64,000 nucleotides of DNA, taken from NCBI GenBank assembly GCA_016125375.1, contig WGLU01000006.1:186001-250000 (forward strand). The letters run 5' to 3'. Shown here piece by piece: positions 7,348 through 22,422 of the stretch. The stretch comes from Pseudomonadota bacterium. Its GTDB lineage: Bacteria > Pseudomonadota > Alphaproteobacteria > UBA1280 > RI-95. The notes below the pieces were generated by a model. The model had not been told where the DNA came from. It saw nothing but the letters and a program-made list of their open reading frames with translations, and made no database searches. How positions within the stretch are numbered: position 1 is the stretch's first letter; every line of letters starts with the position of its first letter. Both the position numbers and the translations under genes were made by a program.

Positions 7348-9876
7348 ATGATAACGTATCTCCACACTCTGTGTAAGTTTTTTGCCCGCGCCGACCTGTT
7401 TTGCGCCGCGCTGGTGTGGCTGATGTTTCTGGTCGTTACCGGTACCGTCGCCCAGCGGGAGATGGGGTTGTACGACGCCCAGCAGATGTACTTCTCTTCG
7501 TGGTATTTCATGGCAGGCGGTTATGTGCCGCTGCCTGCGGGCATGAGTGTGCTCGCCCTGCTCGCCGTCGGCCTTGCCTGCAAGCTGGGGCTGGAGCGCT
7601 GGCGGCTGCGCAACCTCGGCACCCTGACCAGCCACATCGGCGCCTTGATGCTGCTGGTGGGCGGCCTGGCCATCCAGCAGACGGCTCAGGAGGGGCTTGT
7701 GGTGTTGTCCGTCGGCGATGTCGCCGCTGCCAGTACCAACGCCCATACCCAGCAGCAATATCTGCTGCCTTTTTCGCTGGAGTTGACCGCCTTCGAGCGG
7801 GAGGATCACCCGGGCACGGCGATGGCGCGGCATTTCGGCTCGCGGGTGATCGTCCACAGCGGCGCGCAGGCGTGGCCGGCGTACATCCGCATGAACGAGC
7901 CGCTGCGCTTCAAGGGCTACACCGTTTACCAGTCCGCCGTGGCCATGAACGACGGCACCCCTGCCAGCGTGCTGGCGGTGGTGAAAAACCCGACCCGCCT
8001 GTTCCCGTATATCTGCACGTTCGTGCTGGCAGTTGGCCTGCTGGCGCACCTGTTGCAGGCCGCGTGGCGGCGGCAGGCGTCGCTGGTGCTGCTGGCGCTT
8101 GGGGTTGCGCTGCCCGCCCATGCGGCGGTGGACGCAGACGGCTTCGGCGCCCTGCCCATCCAGCAGGAGGGCAGACTCAAGCCCCTCGATACCTATGCCC
8201 GCGTCTTGCTGACCGAGGTCAGCGGCAAGGACGCCCTGCCGGATAAAACCGCAACCGACTGGCTGGCCGAGCTGGTGCTCGACCCCGCACAGGCGTACGC
8301 CCGCCGCGTGTTCCGGATTGATAACCCCGCCGTGGCCGATGCGCTGGCGCTGCCAGTTCGTACACCCCGCCTGTATAGCTTTGCCGAGGTCGGCACCGCC
8401 CTGCGCCTGCACGCGGGGCTGGTCAACCCGCTGTTGGCGCAAAAGCCGGAAGCGCGTGCGCTGGTGGAAAACCAGCTCGTCGGCCTGTATGCCGTGGCGC
8501 AGAAGTATTTTCAGGTCAGCCGCGCCCTGACCGTGCTGCTGCCGGTTTTTGAGGTTACCGCGCCGGAGAACCTGCCCCTGTTCGCCCTAAAAGCCCCCGC
8601 AAGCCTGACCTATCTGGACGTGCACGCCCGCCGCGCCGCATGGGTGGCAGCGGTCGATGGCCTCGACCCCGCCCGCCCCACGCCTGCCCAGCGCGAACTG
8701 CTGCGCCTTGCCCGCCAGTACCGGCAAATCGGTCAGGATGTGCCCAGCGCCGCCTTTGCCGTGCTGCCGCCTTTGTGGGCGGAGGATGGCGAGCGCTGGT
8801 TCGCCCCGTGGGACATGCTGGCCAGCGGGCGCGGCAGCCCTGTGCTCGCGCGTTTTATCGGTGCGTGGCAGCGCTTGGCCATGGCCTATAAAACAGGGGA
8901 TGACGCCCTATGGCAGCGGGCGCTGACGGAACTGGAAAACGGCCTGAGCGCTGCCAGCACCGCCAACCCCGCCCGCCTGAGGGCGGAGGTCGCCTATAAC
9001 ACCTGCGCACCCTTCAAGGTATCCGCCATGCTGTATGTGCTGGCAGGTTTGGCCACGCTGGCTTTTTTGCTGGGCGCCGCCCGCCGTTTGGTGTGGCCGC
9101 TGGGCGTCACCCTGCTGGGGGCGGGCGTGGTGGTGCATGGGCTGGGGTTTGCCGCCCGCATCTGGGTGATGCAGCGCCCGCCGGTGGCGACGTTGTACGA
9201 GTCGGTTATCTTTGTCGGCCTTGTGGTGCCGCTGGTGCTGCTGGGGTGGGAGCTGAAACGCCGCGACGGCGTCGCCCTGCTGCTTGCCGCCATTGGCGGT
9301 GCGGCCTTGCAGGCCATCGGCCTGCGCTACAGCGCCGAGGGGGACAGCATGGGCATGCTCACCGCCGTGCTGAACACCAACTTCTGGCTGGCGGTGCACG
9401 TGCTGACCATTGCGCTGGGCTACAGCTTTTGTTTTGTCACCGCAGGCCTTGCCCATCTGGCGCTGGTGCGCGGCGGGCGCACCCTGCACCGCCCCATCCT
9501 GCTGATGGGGTTGACAGCGCTGCTGTTCACCCTTGTGGGTACGCTGTTGGGCGGGGTCTGGGCCGACCAGTCGTGGGGGCGTTTCTGGGGCTGGGACCCG
9601 AAAGAAAACGGTGCCCTGCTGATCGTCCTATGGTTGTTGTTCGCCTTTCACGGCAGCCTGAGCGGCCTCTTCCCGCAGCGGGTGTTTTACATGGTACTGG
9701 GGCTGACGGCGCCGGTGGTGGCGCTGGCATGGTTCGGCGTCAACCTGCTGGGGGTGGGGCTGCACAGCTACGGCTTTACCACCGGTGCGGCGCTCAAGCT
9801 GGCGGCGTTCTGTCTGGGCGACATGCTGCTGCTGGCCGTGCTTTATCGGGCAGGAGGCAAACGCCATGCGCTTTAA
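7348..9876 (+). CDS. ccsBA: Fused System II cytochrome c haem lyase CcsBA (ResB-ResC)
   Basis: An 842-residue fusion. The N-terminal part is ResB/CcsB-like with membrane segments near residues 15-35, 50-75 and 88-105, a periplasmic region and another helix near 230. A long, less conserved periplasmic middle (about residues 260-580) follows. The C-terminal 260 residues are the CcsA/ResC domain with the haem-handling signature WGRFWGWDPKEN. CcsBA moves haem to the periplasm and attaches it to CxxCH motifs. The frame is open further upstream, but the ATG at 7348 gives a typical start into the first helix. The sequence looks visibly more GC-rich than the ribosomal-protein region. Its redox partner overlaps its 3' end. 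Confidence 0.93.
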   Translation: MITYLHTLCKFFARADLFCAALVWLMFLVVTGTVAQREMGLYDAQQMYFSSWYFMAGGYVPLPAGMSVLALLAVGLACKLGLERWRLRNLGTLTSHIGALMLLVGGLAIQQTAQEGLVVLSVGDVAAASTNAHTQQQYLLPFSLELTAFEREDHPGTAMARHFGSRVIVHSGAQAWPAYIRMNEPLRFKGYTVYQSAVAMNDGTPASVLAVVKNPTRLFPYICTFVLAVGLLAHLLQAAWRRQASLVLLALGVALPAHAAVDADGFGALPIQQEGRLKPLDTYARVLLTEVSGKDALPDKTATDWLAELVLDPAQAYARRVFRIDNPAVADALALPVRTPRLYSFAEVGTALRLHAGLVNPLLAQKPEARALVENQLVGLYAVAQKYFQVSRALTVLLPVFEVTAPENLPLFALKAPASLTYLDVHARRAAWVAAVDGLDPARPTPAQRELLRLARQYRQIGQDVPSAAFAVLPPLWAEDGERWFAPWDMLASGRGSPVLARFIGAWQRLAMAYKTGDDALWQRALTELENGLSAASTANPARLRAEVAYNTCAPFKVSAMLYVLAGLATLAFLLGAARRLVWPLGVTLLGAGVVVHGLGFAARIWVMQRPPVATLYESVIFVGLVVPLVLLGWELKRRDGVALLLAAIGGAALQAIGLRYSAEGDSMGMLTAVLNTNFWLAVHVLTIALGYSFCFVTAGLAHLALVRGGRTLHRPILLMGLTALLFTLVGTLLGGVWADQSWGRFWGWDPKENGALLIVLWLLFAFHGSLSGLFPQRVFYMVLGLTAPVVALAWFGVNLLGVGLHSYGFTTGAALKLAAFCLGDMLLLAVLYRAGGKRHAL

Positions 9877-16327: not shown

Positions 16328-16648
16328 ATGAAGCGTATTCTGCTTGCTACGGCGTTGGCTATTGTCTGCGCCACGCCGGCTTTTGCCGACGATGCACCCC
16401 TCATGCCCATCAACGGCCAGAACGCTGTGACCAGCGGCTGGACGACCATGCCCGATGGCGGCTATATCCGCCGCATCTGGGACTTCGAGTACGATCAGCT
16501 GTGCACCTTCTCTGCCGGTAACTCCGAGGCTGGCGGCATGTCCTGCCAGGCCTACCGGCAGATGACCACCAACGCCCAAGGGCGTTTTGTGGAGGTCTGC
16601 AAGGCCAACAGCAAGTCCCCCGCAACCTGCCCTGCCCGTGAACAATAA
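16328..16648 (+). CDS. Exported four-cysteine protein, paralogue 1
   Basis: I do not recognise this family. The 106-residue product has a clear signal peptide ([14 protein letters not shown], cleavage likely after AFA) and a mature domain with the spacing W-D-F-x4-L-C-x13-C-x17-C-x9-C. The same signature, with a Gln 11 residues after the second Cys and an aromatic residue 3 further on, occurs in the next three genes. An even number of cysteines in an exported protein suggests two disulfides. Its stop codon overlaps the ribosome site of paralogue 2, so the two are co-translated. Divergent from lepA. Confidence 0.85.
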
Positions 16649-16658
16649 GGAGGTCACG

Positions 16659-16976
16659 ATGTTCCGTCATCTGCTTCTCGCCGCCGGTGTGGCGCTCTCG
16701 CTCGCCGCCGTGGCCGGTGCCGCCCAGGCGGGCGAGCCCACCACCCGCACGTCGCCGGATGGCAACGTCATCCAGCAGGATATCGGCGGCAACCTCCGTG
16801 GTCCGCTGTTCCGGTATTTCGATTTCGACATGGGCACCGTCTGCTACAGTGCCTACAGTGGCGAGTTCCACTGCCTGCCGCTGGCCCAGCTGCCGCCGGC
16901 CGGGCAGGATACCTTCGCCAAGCTGTGCAAGCAGCACAGCCGCGAGCCCGCCCTGTGCCCCAAGGCGGCCGAATAA
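16659..16976 (+). CDS. Exported four-cysteine protein, paralogue 2
   Basis: A 105-residue unknown protein. Signal peptide [14 protein letters not shown] with likely cleavage after AQA; mature part carries F-D-F-x4-V-C-x9-C-x17-C-x9-C, the shortest first loop of the four paralogues. The start at 16659 has AAGGAGG at 16647-16653 overlapping the preceding stop; the open frame upstream of it overlaps paralogue 1 and is not used. A strong terminator follows directly, so paralogues 1 and 2 form a two-gene operon. Confidence 0.85.
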
Positions 16977-16991
16977 CCCCAAACACGCGCA

Positions 16992-17021
16992 GAACCCCGC
17001 CATCCGGCGGGGTTCTTTTTT
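16992..17021 (+). terminator. Rho-independent terminator after paralogue 2
   Basis: Perfect 10-bp stem GAACCCCGCC / GGCGGGGTTC with loop ATCC, followed by six T. Confidence 0.95.
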
Positions 17022-17060
17022 GTCTACAGGGGCGGGGGACTGTGTGGTAGCCTTGTGGGC

Positions 17061-17642
17061 ATGCGATACCTTTTGGCCCTACTGATGTGTGTGACGGCTG
17101 TGCCTGCTTTTGCCCAGAGCCGCGGTATGGCCATGCCTGTTATCGTTCAAAAAGAGGTGCGCGACCCATCCGCGACAACAGCGGCGAATGCCGCCAACAT
17201 CGTCATCGAGCAGGTAGACTTAATTGGCAGTTTTCGCCGTCTTTACGATTTTGATAACGAACAGCTCTGCACCTTTTACAACCACTCCGCCAATATCCAG
17301 AGCGGTGGGGGTTTGAGCTGCCGCTTTTATGACGAGCTGCCGGCACGGGTGCAAAAGCGCTATGACGATATTTGCCAGAAAATGAGCAAACGTAAAGAAG
17401 CTTGCCCGCAGCCCACCCCCCGGACATCAGCACCTGTGGCCCCGCCTGTCGGTGTGCCGGGAGTCTATTCGCCTTCTGCGACCGTGGACAGCCCGCCACC
17501 AACCGGTGACGAGGAAGAAATGGAGGGTACAGAATCCTCGGATACGACCCCTGCCATCGGCAACGGATTGCCGCCCAAGTTCAACCTACTGGGCCGCGGC
17601 AGGTCCTACTCGGTGGACGAATTGCGCAGTGCAAAGCCTTAG
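17061..17642 (+). CDS. Exported four-cysteine protein, paralogue 3, with acidic/proline-rich tail
   Basis: A 193-residue unknown protein. Signal peptide MRYLLALLMCVTAVP with cleavage likely after AFA. The cysteine domain (about residues 63-117) reads Y-D-F-x4-L-C-x16-C-x17-C-x9-C. The remaining 75 residues are Pro/Ser/Thr-rich and then acidic, so probably disordered. A GTG two codons earlier is an alternative start; neither has a strong ribosome site. Placed after the terminator of paralogues 1-2, so it needs its own promoter. Confidence 0.8.
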   Translation: MRYLLALLMCVTAVPAFAQSRGMAMPVIVQKEVRDPSATTAANAANIVIEQVDLIGSFRRLYDFDNEQLCTFYNHSANIQSGGGLSCRFYDELPARVQKRYDDICQKMSKRKEACPQPTPRTSAPVAPPVGVPGVYSPSATVDSPPPTGDEEEMEGTESSDTTPAIGNGLPPKFNLLGRGRSYSVDELRSAKP

Positions 17643-17748
17643 TGTATAGTGCTGCGGCTTACACATTCCCTTTCCTTTTTATAACGTCTTGATTACCTGC
17701 GTATAGGAGCGCCCGATTATAGCTGCTCGTGATCCCTCCCGCCGTGGC

Positions 17749-18324
17749 ATGACCAAGAGCCAATGGCGTGATGCACGCCGTTGGGTATGGATTGCCTTTG
17801 GATTCCTGGCCTTTGTGATGCTGGTGGTACCCCTTGTGTTGATGAGCTACAGCCATTGGCTGCATAAGCCGGCACCTGTGGTACCCGAGAAACCGGCCCT
17901 TGTGCAGCCCGCGCTGCCACAGGTCGAGCCGGATGCTTCCAAGGCCGAACCCGCGCCTCTTCCCCCTGTCGACAAGGCAGAAAAGGACGCGCCGCCGACG
18001 CCGAAAGCTGACAAACAGCCCGAGGCCGTCAAACCCGCAACGCCTGCAAAACCGGCTACACCGGCCAAGCCGTTTGTCCATCCGGACACCGGTTACCTGA
18101 AGGGCAACAGCCTGACCATCCACACCTTCCCGAGCTACTACCCGGACGATACCGCAACGTTTGACTTTGTCCGGCGCGAGGTGTGTTTCAACAATATCGG
18201 CAACACCGTTTTGCCGACCGGCTGCTGGGCGGTGGAAGACCTTCACCCCAAATGGCAGCAGGACTTTGCCTTGTACTGCAGTCGCCACGCCGTGTCACCA
18301 CAGGCTTGTGGTCGCCGCTGGTAG
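17749..18324 (+). CDS. Membrane-anchored four-cysteine protein, paralogue 4
   Basis: A 191-residue unknown protein. A basic N-terminus is followed by one membrane helix (about residues 13-33), not a cleavable signal, then a Pro/Ala/Lys/Glu-rich linker with PATPAKPATPAKP repeats (about residues 45-105), then the cysteine domain F-D-F-x4-V-C-x12-C-x17-C-x9-C at the C-terminus. The linker would hold the domain away from the inner membrane. The ATG at 17749 has no ribosome site; AGGAG at 17705-17709 stands 6 bp before an in-frame ATT (17716), with a stop codon upstream of it, so a rare start adding 11 residues is possible. Confidence 0.8.
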   Translation: MTKSQWRDARRWVWIAFGFLAFVMLVVPLVLMSYSHWLHKPAPVVPEKPALVQPALPQVEPDASKAEPAPLPPVDKAEKDAPPTPKADKQPEAVKPATPAKPATPAKPFVHPDTGYLKGNSLTIHTFPSYYPDDTATFDFVRREVCFNNIGNTVLPTGCWAVEDLHPKWQQDFALYCSRHAVSPQACGRRW

Positions 18325-19439: not shown

Positions 19440-20287
19440 CCCTTGAGCTGACCCTGCTGGTTTTGCTGTCTGCCATCCTGCATGCCGGATGGAACACGCT
19501 GCTCAAAAAAGGAGGGGACCGGTTTCTAAGCTTGGTTTCCATGGCTGTGGTCCATATGGTTCCCTGCCTGCTGATGATCCCCTTTGTGCCGCTGCCCGAT
19601 GCCGCAACAGCCCAGTGGCTTGCCATGTCGCTCGTGTTCAATGTGGCCTATCAGATTTTCCTGTCGTGGGCATACAAGCACGGGGATTTGTCGCAGGTGT
19701 ATCCCATCGCCCGTGGTTCCGGACCGCTGTGGGTGGCGCTAACGGCACCGCTTTTTTACGGCACGGTGATGCCGTGGTATGCACAGGGGGCTGTGGCTCT
19801 GATTTGTACAGGCCTGTTCACACTCGGTATTCGCCGGGGAATGTTGAAACCAGAAAATCTTCGTCCGCTCCTCCTCGCGCTGGCAACAGGTATGCTGATT
19901 GCCAGCTACCTGATGACCGATGCAGCGGGTGTACGGGCTGCCCCCGTGGTTTGGACGTTCATCGCCTGGCAGGGGTTTACGCTGGGCAGCACCATGATGG
20001 TGGTTGCCATCTGTGTGCATAAACGCGGGTGGCAGAAATACGTACGGCAGAACTGGCGGCGGGATGTGGTCCGTGGCCTGATGGGGTTTGTGAGCTACGG
20101 GATTATCCTGTACGTCCTGCGCAGTGGCCCAGTGGCAGAGGTCGTGGCCCTGCGTGAAACCAGCGTTATTTTTGCAGCCGTACTCGGGTGGCTTTTTTTG
20201 GGGGAAGGATTCGGCAAGCGGCGGATTGCAGGGGCAATTTTTGTCGCCAGCGGTGTTTTACTCCTCAAGCTCGGGGCTTTGTTGTAG
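19436..20287 (+). CDS. EamA/DMT-family transporter
   Basis: A 283-residue protein with about ten membrane helices in two homologous halves, the EamA drug/metabolite transporter architecture. Motifs such as HAGWNTLLKK at the first helix, QVYPIARGSGPLWVAL and LRETSVIFAAVLGWLFLGE are characteristic of the family. Substrate cannot be inferred. Starts within ATGA at the end of pyrD, so translation is coupled. Confidence 0.88.
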   Translation: MTLELTLLVLLSAILHAGWNTLLKKGGDRFLSLVSMAVVHMVPCLLMIPFVPLPDAATAQWLAMSLVFNVAYQIFLSWAYKHGDLSQVYPIARGSGPLWVALTAPLFYGTVMPWYAQGAVALICTGLFTLGIRRGMLKPENLRPLLLALATGMLIASYLMTDAAGVRAAPVVWTFIAWQGFTLGSTMMVVAICVHKRGWQKYVRQNWRRDVVRGLMGFVSYGIILYVLRSGPVAEVVALRETSVIFAAVLGWLFLGEGFGKRRIAGAIFVASGVLLLKLGALL

Positions 20288-20321
20288 ACTGCCCGCTACC
20301 ACTTCAAAAAGGGTCGTGCAG

Positions 20322-21332
20322 ATGAATATCACCATCGTCACCGATGCTTGGAAACCCCAAGTCAACGGCGTTGTCCGTAACTACGAGAGCCTGACCAAAG
20401 TTTTCCGCGAACGGGGTAACAAGGTCACCTTTATCAGCCCGCTGGACTTTATGACGGTGCCATGCCCCACGTATCCAGAGATCTCCCTCGCGATATTCCC
20501 CAAGCGTAAGTTGGTCAAACTGCTGGAGGCCTCCAACCCCGAGCGCATCCACATTGCGACCGAAGGTCCTCTGGGCTGGGCCGCGCGCGCCTACTGCATC
20601 AAAAACGGCCTGCCGTTTACCACCTGTTATCACACCAAGTTCCCCGAATACATCCACGAGCGCTTTAGTATTCCGCTGGACTGGAGCTACGGTCTGATGC
20701 GTAAGTTCCACGATGCCGCCACGACCACGTTGATTAACACCGACGGTGTGTATGACGAGCTGACTCTGCGTCGCTTCAACCACTTGCGTAAGCGTCGCAT
20801 GGGTGTGGATGGTAGAATCTTCCAACAAGGGGAAAAGGACTTTCTGAAGCACCTGCCGCGGCCAATTTTTGTCTGCCACGGACGCATTGCGGTGGAAAAG
20901 AACCTCGAAGCCTTCCTCAAACTCGATCTGCCGGGCACCAAGTTGGTTATCGGCCCGGGGCCGCTGCTGCCGTACCTGAAGAAAAAATATCCGGACGTTG
21001 TGTTCACCGGCTATGTACCGGATGAGGAGATGAGCAAGATGCTCGCCGCCAGTGACGTGATGGTTTTCCCCAGTTTCACCGAAACCTTTGGTCTGGTACA
21101 GCTGGAAGCCATGGCCTGTGGCCTGCCTGTTGCCGCCCTGCCGGTGACAGGTCCGAACGAGATTGTGGGCAAAAGCGGCGCTGGCGTACTGGATACCGAT
21201 CTGCGTAAAGCAGCCCTTGCCGCACTCGACATCAATGGCGATACCTGCCGCAAGCACGCCTTGCAGTTCAAATGGGAAGATGGTGCGGACGACTTTTTGG
21301 GTGCCCTCACCCCCCTTGCCAAGAGCGCCTGA
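20322..21332 (+). CDS. GT4-family glycosyltransferase, paralogue A
   Basis: A 336-residue glycosyltransferase with two Rossmann-like domains. The N-terminus MNITIVTDAWKPQVNGV holds the glycine-rich acceptor loop; the C-terminal half has HGRIAVEKNLEAFL, and the E-x7-E nucleotide-sugar motif in TETFGLVQLEAMACGLP. The family includes enzymes adding sugars to membrane lipids; the substrate here is unknown. It lies 34 bp after the EamA gene and is convergent with a close paralogue across a shared terminator. Confidence 0.9.
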   Translation: MNITIVTDAWKPQVNGVVRNYESLTKVFRERGNKVTFISPLDFMTVPCPTYPEISLAIFPKRKLVKLLEASNPERIHIATEGPLGWAARAYCIKNGLPFTTCYHTKFPEYIHERFSIPLDWSYGLMRKFHDAATTTLINTDGVYDELTLRRFNHLRKRRMGVDGRIFQQGEKDFLKHLPRPIFVCHGRIAVEKNLEAFLKLDLPGTKLVIGPGPLLPYLKKKYPDVVFTGYVPDEEMSKMLAASDVMVFPSFTETFGLVQLEAMACGLPVAALPVTGPNEIVGKSGAGVLDTDLRKAALAALDINGDTCRKHALQFKWEDGADDFLGALTPLAKSA

Positions 21333-21340
21333 TTAAGTAA

Positions 21341-21368
21341 ACACCCCCGTGTTGCGGGGGTGTTTTTT
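21341..21368. terminator. Terminator shared by two convergent glycosyltransferase genes
   Basis: Stem ACACCCCCG / CGGGGGTGT with loop TGTTG, followed by T5 on the plus strand. It overlaps the stop of the minus-strand gene and may serve both. Confidence 0.9.
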
Positions 21369-22422
21369 AGGCGCGTTTTTTCTGTTTCATAACCGGAAAG
21401 GCCGCCGGGTCGAACAGGGCAAGATTATCCACAAACTGCTGTGTGGCATTCTGCCATGTAAACTGCTCGGCATGTTTACGGCAGGCTTTGTGGTCCAGCT
21501 CCAGTGCCTGCAATGCTGCGGCCTTCAGGTTGCTGGCCAGAACGCCCACAGGGGCCTTGCCAATGATGTCCTTGGGCCCTGTAACGGGAAATGCTGCAAC
21601 AGGCAGGCCACAGGCCAATGCCTCCAGCACCACATTGCCAAAAGTTTCCGTTACGCTGGGGAAGACCATAACGTCGGCCGATTGCAGGTGGGCAACCATT
21701 TCCGTGTCCGACAGATGACCGGTAAAAATCACCTGCGGGTATTTGCGCCGCAGTTTGGGCAGGTCGGGGCCGTCACCGATAATGACTTTATGACCGGGCA
21801 GGTCGAGCTTGAGAAAAGCCTCGAGATTCTTTTCCACCGCAATACGTCCGTGGCAGATGAAGATGGGGCCGGTGAGTTCTGTCAGGCGGCTGCGGGGCGC
21901 AGGTTTGAATACTGTCAGGTCAACGCCGCGGGACCACAGAACCGGATTGTTGAACCCCCAGCCTTTCAGGGTCTCTATCATGGATGGGGCAGGGACCATG
22001 ACCCGCTGGCCCGCATTATGGAAGCGGCGCAGGAGCGCATAACTTACCCCGACAGGCAGGCCGGAGCGGGCCTGCACATACTCCGGAAACTTGGTATGGT
22101 AGGCCGTCGTGAACGGAATGCCCTGACGCACACAGACGGCGCGGGCCGCCCAGCCCAACGGACCTTCGGTCGCGATGTGAATGGCGTTTTCGTTGCAGCG
22201 GTCGATCAGGCGTTCCATCTTGGGTCCGGCAAAGAGTGAGAGGCGGATTTCCGGATACGTCGGGCAGGGGATGGTTTTAAAGTCGTTCGGGGTGACAAAG
22301 GTCAACTGGCCGCCATTTTCGCGGATGATGCGCTGCGTGGTTTGCAGGGTGCGTACCACGCCGTTTGTCTGCGGCAGCCAGGCATCGGTGACGACAAGGG
22401 CGTTGATATGGCTCATAGGCAT
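21367..22422 (-). CDS. GT4-family glycosyltransferase, paralogue B
   Basis: A 351-residue paralogue of the gene at 20322, facing it. It shares long blocks with it: VVTDAWLPQTNGVVR, IHIATEGPLGWAARA, YHTKFPEY, ICHGRIAVEKNLEAFLKL and TETFGNVVLEALACGLP. It keeps the usual W-S-R-G-V-D-L segment in the middle, which paralogue A has changed to RRMGVDG, so the two may use different substrates. It lies 13 bp downstream of pyrE. The starts at 22422 and 22416 are both possible; GGAG lies upstream. Confidence 0.9.
   Translation of the reverse strand: MPMSHINALVVTDAWLPQTNGVVRTLQTTQRIIRENGGQLTFVTPNDFKTIPCPTYPEIRLSLFAGPKMERLIDRCNENAIHIATEGPLGWAARAVCVRQGIPFTTAYHTKFPEYVQARSGLPVGVSYALLRRFHNAGQRVMVPAPSMIETLKGWGFNNPVLWSRGVDLTVFKPAPRSRLTELTGPIFICHGRIAVEKNLEAFLKLDLPGHKVIIGDGPDLPKLRRKYPQVIFTGHLSDTEMVAHLQSADVMVFPSVTETFGNVVLEALACGLPVAAFPVTGPKDIIGKAPVGVLASNLKAAALQALELDHKACRKHAEQFTWQNATQQFVDNLALFDPAAFPVMKQKKRA

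Follow-up and report, generated by a model that had tools for sequence, protein, structure and literature searches.

Described systems that resemble the cluster

The MliC/PliC lysozyme inhibitors, which are β-barrels, share a small exported domain that occurs both in anchored and in soluble form. TonB and TolA each combine one N-terminal membrane helix, a Pro-rich periplasmic linker and a C-terminal globular domain, and the linker of TonB can span the periplasm (PMC9022066). Protein E of Haemophilus influenzae (Adhesin_E, PF16747) is an exported protein in which an antiparallel sheet is followed by a C-terminal helix, with one disulfide joining the end of β-4 to the main helix (PMC6652776). 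Two further groups share features with the proteins described here: the twin CX9C (CHCH) proteins, in which two C-x9-C units sit in a helical hairpin, and DUF6440 (PF20037) with its phage relatives, a small β-hairpin domain whose proteobacterial members also possess an anchor and a cysteine in the hairpin.

The cluster considered here lies in a 64 kb stretch of DNA from an uncultured alphaproteobacterium (hereafter ‘the window’) and consists of four adjacent genes, P1 to P4, whose products share a four-cysteine domain of about 55–85 residues; P4 is the tethered form. Its overall plan is that of TonB and TolA, with a linker of 80–86 residues in the two tethered proteins found, but the C-terminal domain is unrelated to theirs, soluble paralogues adjoin the tethered gene and there is no ExbBD motor beyond tolQR. 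The predicted fold is a sheet with a helix, unlike the barrels of MliC/PliC, and the domain has no Pfam match. Whereas the CHCH proteins have paired C-x9-C units, there is one such unit per domain here and the models are mostly β. DUF6440 differs in its cysteine positions and in having no helix that carries the third and fourth cysteines. Protein E is larger, with two conserved cysteines as opposed to four, and has no sequence similarity to the domain, although its strand 4-to-helix disulfide would occupy a place comparable to that of the first and third cysteines (C1 and C3).

Genes and transcription units

All four genes named in the preliminary description are present among the open reading frames of the window, on the plus strand and with the starts given there, and the sequences bear out its view that three of the products have signal peptides and the fourth is anchored. 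P1 (16328..16648) is divergent from lepA and encodes a signal peptide (cut after AFA) followed by the domain, with cysteine gaps of 13, 17 and 9 residues. It is the first gene of a probable two-gene unit with P2 (16659..16976, plus strand), which is preceded by a strong Shine-Dalgarno sequence (AAGGAGGT) and encodes a signal peptide (cut between AQA and GE) and a domain with gaps of 9, 17 and 9. The unit is closed by an intrinsic terminator-like hairpin with an 11 bp stem and a T tract (16991..17016, plus strand). P3 (17061..17642, plus strand) likewise has a signal peptide (AFA before QS), its domain has gaps of 16, 17 and 9, and it ends in a Pro/acidic C-terminal tail of 77 residues that the preliminary description did not mention. 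In P4 (17749..18324, plus strand), residues from about 9 to 38 are hydrophobic and form the N-terminal anchor; a Pro/Ala/Lys linker of 80 residues (34–113), 21 of them Pro, leads to the C-terminal domain, which has gaps of 12, 17 and 9 and whose motif, from FDF to the fourth cysteine, occupies 18160..18309 on the plus strand. A second terminator-like hairpin, with a 10 bp stem and a T tract, lies 3′ of P4 (18328..18351, plus strand). Given the hairpins after P2 and P4, P1 and P2 seem to be transcribed as a single unit, behind which come P3 and P4. The GC3 of the four reading frames (0.63–0.86) is consistent with their being coding genes. The cluster is flanked by housekeeping genes; further along the window (20124–22422), two convergent paralogous glycosyltransferase genes lie between pyrD and pyrE, and a single protein of the genome UBA6503 is 48% identical to one of their products and 56% to the other.

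A shared four-cysteine domain

Direct reading agrees with the signature originally proposed, in which a variable first loop is followed by fixed gaps of 17 and 9 residues. When all six frames of the window were searched by regular expression for [WYF]DF-x4-[LVI]-C-x(5-22)-C-x17-C-x9-C, the full motif was found to start at four places, 16478, 16818, 17244 and 18160, each inside one of P1 to P4, and in no other frame of the 64 kb. The bare cysteine spacing arises in shuffles of each protein at frequencies of 1e-5 to 5e-4, and the full motif was recovered in 0 of 100,000 shuffled proteins. Smith-Waterman scores between the domains were 3.7 to 25 SD above those of shuffled sequences; the weakest pair, P3–P4 (3.7 SD), is unconvincing alone, and both of its members are strongly tied to other members. 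By alignment statistics, the four domains are homologous. The D, the F and the four cysteines are invariant over all five members (P1 to P4 and the UBA6503 homologue described below). The glutamine included in the original motif is not, being K in the UBA6503 homologue.

AlphaFold2 models were made of one secreted domain (P1) and of the tethered domain (P4), from only five sequences. The P1 domain was predicted with a pLDDT of 89 and a pTM of 0.77, with strands at residues 4–6, 12–15, 25–31, 36–42 and 49–54 and a helix at 60–73. The P4 domain (pLDDT 76, with low confidence in the first 17 residues, which belong to the linker) was modelled with four strands and then the helix, in an order matching that of P1. 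The two predicted domains agree in topology, a short antiparallel sheet and one helix. In the P1 model C1 (residue 38) lies in strand 36–42 and C2 (52) in strand 49–54, while the helix holds C3 (70) and is followed by C4 (80). The gap that varies, the first, therefore corresponds to a loop between strands, and the fixed gaps of 17 and 9 span strand, helix and turn. As read from the predicted secondary structure, the cysteines could pair either as C1–C2 with C3–C4 or as C1–C3 with C2–C4, and the domain is probably locked by two disulfides. DsbB is encoded in 6/6 genomes of the order, so disulfides can form. The compact fold predicted for both P1 and P4 supports the small disulfide-bonded periplasmic domain originally envisaged, and the disulfides, which the presence of DsbB would allow, are what we infer.

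A tethered relative in another family

A profile of the four domains, run against six genomes of the order, detected one strong relative (E 1e-10), encoded on contig DJLZ01000001.1 of the metagenome-assembled genome UBA6503 (G005), which belongs to another family of the same order as the window genome. The protein begins with about 100 residues of charged N-terminus, followed by a membrane helix, a linker of 86 residues (25 Pro and 16 Thr) and a four-cysteine domain with gaps of 13, 17 and 9. The sequence of the linker has changed between the families, being a P/A/K-rich stretch of 80 residues in P4 and a P/T-rich one of 86 in the UBA6503 protein, and the tether anatomy has been kept; identity across the two families is about 28–29%. 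The gene is present in a single copy, directly divergent from lepA as is the window cluster, and the order lepA, four-cysteine gene(s), glycosyltransferase, DAG kinase is common to both genomes, with different intervening genes. The four-gene profile detected no soluble copy in UBA6503, which has the tethered form alone, and this indicates that soluble partners are not needed for the tethered form to be kept. Directly 3′ of the tethered gene (L026:6841-11343) five genes in a row are predicted to encode exported proteins, some of which form alternating similar pairs; one of the proteins (372 aa, 7989–9107) contains a HINT domain (Pfam E 2.7e-8), and none of the five is a homologue of the window cluster.

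In a five-row tree, which is unrooted and has long branches, P4 and the UBA6503 protein are separated from P1, P2 and P3 with support of 94/96, and from these sequences the two tethered forms look orthologous. The soluble paralogues were most likely made by tandem duplication. The secreted copies are either older than the split between the families, in which case UBA6503 has lost them, or of later origin and rapid divergence.

Distribution across genomes

The window genome (1.98 Mb, 97.7% complete) gave no convincing fifth copy; a match of E 0.3 on contig C4 is weak and falls in unrelated genes. The family is patchy, being present in 2/6 genomes of the order. Other genes lie beside lepA in G003, which is of the same family as UBA6503, and in G002, with no four-cysteine member there. 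As UBA6503 has no soluble copies and G003 has no member at all, the system is dispensable. In G003 the region beside lepA (L027:7036-11070) encodes several similar-looking proteins of about 310–320 aa that do not contain the motif, so tandem families specific to one lineage seem to accumulate at this locus. Two low-GC genomes of the order carry repeated copies of a prepilin-like N-terminus in the lepA region (L029:1711-2304, 7578-8285; L030:2171-2482), reading KGAMFGLDARIAL[AV]IFGALSVISGAALY in the longer copies.

No other acceptable member was found in two samples of the class (385 and 384 genomes, most of them probably common to both) or in a phylum sample of 398 genomes; the genomes sampled cover only about half of known species. 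The weak class-wide matches (E 0.002–0.008) were dismissed as chance, since none had the four-cysteine pattern, several had stops, and one lies across an unrelated, intact gene that is read in a different frame. Of the protein scans of wider genome contigs, one was empty and another gave UBA6503 itself and a stretch in a clostridial MAG (L036) that has neither an open gene nor the cysteine pattern and was rejected as chance. Viral contigs, plasmids and phages yielded no relevant match. As far as sampled, and judged by sequence comparison, this is a real, undescribed and narrow protein family. An old family kept by selection had been suggested: the orthologue in another family, which keeps the 17 and 9 spacing, speaks for it, whereas ‘old’ applies only within a small order, given that the class and phylum samples gave nothing solid.

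Comparison with known families

The original description could not place P1 to P4 in a known family, and that position is upheld. There was no match near the cut-off in Pfam (all five members), NCBIfam or PHROGs; a profile search of PDB sequences returned nothing up to E 10, and Foldseek against the PDB returned nothing below E 0.24. Against viral models the best Foldseek match was an uncharacterised Bacillus phage protein (E 2.4e-3, TM 0.59, but rmsd 7.4), which was not used. One DUF6440 protein stood at rank 50 of the viral fold list and the link was followed for its hairpin; comparison with four proteobacterial members using hhalign gave a probability of 0.1%, and the link was rejected. No DUF6440 match was found by Pfam in the five members, and none in the window genome.

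Alternative explanations were weighed against these results. One of them, which we regard as unlikely, is that the domain is a reduced, divergent form of the protein E/Adhesin_E fold, in which case the copies would belong to that superfamily as ligand binders of the cell surface or periplasm. VIA-align ranked protein E first for both models (P1: Z 6.2, rmsd 3.2, 78 residues aligned; P4: Z 4.8, rmsd 3.4, 67 aligned), and the β-4-to-helix disulfide of protein E (PMC6652776) sits in a position similar in kind to those of C1 and C3; on calibration, however, both Z values fall in the range that unrelated folds reach and are common without relationship, and identity to protein E is 2–9%. The Adhesin_E alignment has two invariant cysteines 49 residues apart (reference row), as against four here, the PF16747 profile matches none of the five members, and no Adhesin_E protein is encoded in the window genome. 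Profile–profile comparison (hhalign) with 11 alphaproteobacterial Adhesin_E proteins gave a probability of 0.2% over 10 columns. In view of the calibration and of this negative outcome, the four-cysteine domain is not filed under Adhesin_E. It is also conceivable, at about the same low level of likelihood, that the proteins are exported inhibitors or immunity proteins directed against lysozyme-like enzymes, proteases or rival toxins. By analogy, small exported four-cysteine domains in soluble and anchored forms, as in PliC/MliC, with divergent tandem paralogues, fit such a role, but no toxin gene was recognised in the neighbourhood, no Pfam inhibitor family matched and PADLOC gave no strong match (best E 0.0055, for 1/5 members).

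The TonB-like plan of P4, with its membrane helix and long Pro-rich linker of a kind that can span the periplasm (PMC9022066), raises the idea of an energy transducer whose C-terminal domain acts on outer-membrane partners. This is highly improbable: P4 has no TonB_C match in Pfam, and the only ExbD and TonB_C genes of the window genome belong to a tol cluster that follows ruvB (L073, G000:C9:241500-249500), with a tolQ-like gene on one side and a tolB-like gene on the other, which identifies them as tolR and tolA. No separate ExbBD or Ton motor was found in that genome, and with its only ExbD and TonB_C genes so accounted for, a Ton-type motor role for P4 is unlikely and P4 was rejected as a Ton surrogate. 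A dispensable orphan gene, duplicated and drifting with no present role of its own, would agree with the patchy presence in 2/6 genomes of the order, yet the cysteine spacing and the D-F pair are invariant across two families despite about 28–29% identity, and the reading frames are intact and have their own terminators; drift of this kind is somewhat less probable than either the inhibitor or the protein E explanation.

A proposed envelope domain in tethered and released forms

The explanation that we favour, tentatively, is a lineage-restricted family of exported domains in which the tethered P4 and the soluble copies serve as binding modules of the envelope. A small domain of antiparallel β-sheet and helix would be exported; in the tethered form, an inner-membrane anchor would hold it out into the periplasm on the Pro-rich linker of about 80 residues, and the anchor-less tandem copies, with their signal peptides, would be released into the periplasm or beyond. 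Fully extended, the linker is estimated to measure about 25 nm (at 3.1 Å per residue), a length sufficient for the domain to pass through the peptidoglycan. The domain itself may bind proteins or peptides in the periplasm or at the outer membrane, and the soluble copies might recognise its target or a related one, either competing with the tethered form or acting as its partners; alternatively, the soluble paralogues may bind the tethered form itself. The tethered receptor or assembly platform with soluble partners put forward in the preliminary description would be one version of the binding-module explanation. The flanks of the cluster indicate no partner, ligand or pathway, and a binding role is what we infer for the domain. 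A more specific proposal, and a rather improbable one, is a new envelope system in which a new disulfide-locked binding domain is displayed across the cell wall by an inner-membrane protein and secreted copies of that domain serve as its soluble ligands or competitors, the relative amounts of the tethered and soluble forms tuning a single interaction.

The cluster represents an undescribed domain family from a little-studied alphaproteobacterial order, for which a confident fold prediction was possible from only five sequences. Its likely history is a simple one, in which one tethered gene gave rise to one tethered and three secreted genes, and if the soluble and tethered forms do share a target, the cluster would provide a compact model for how a membrane-held envelope domain yields secreted paralogues.
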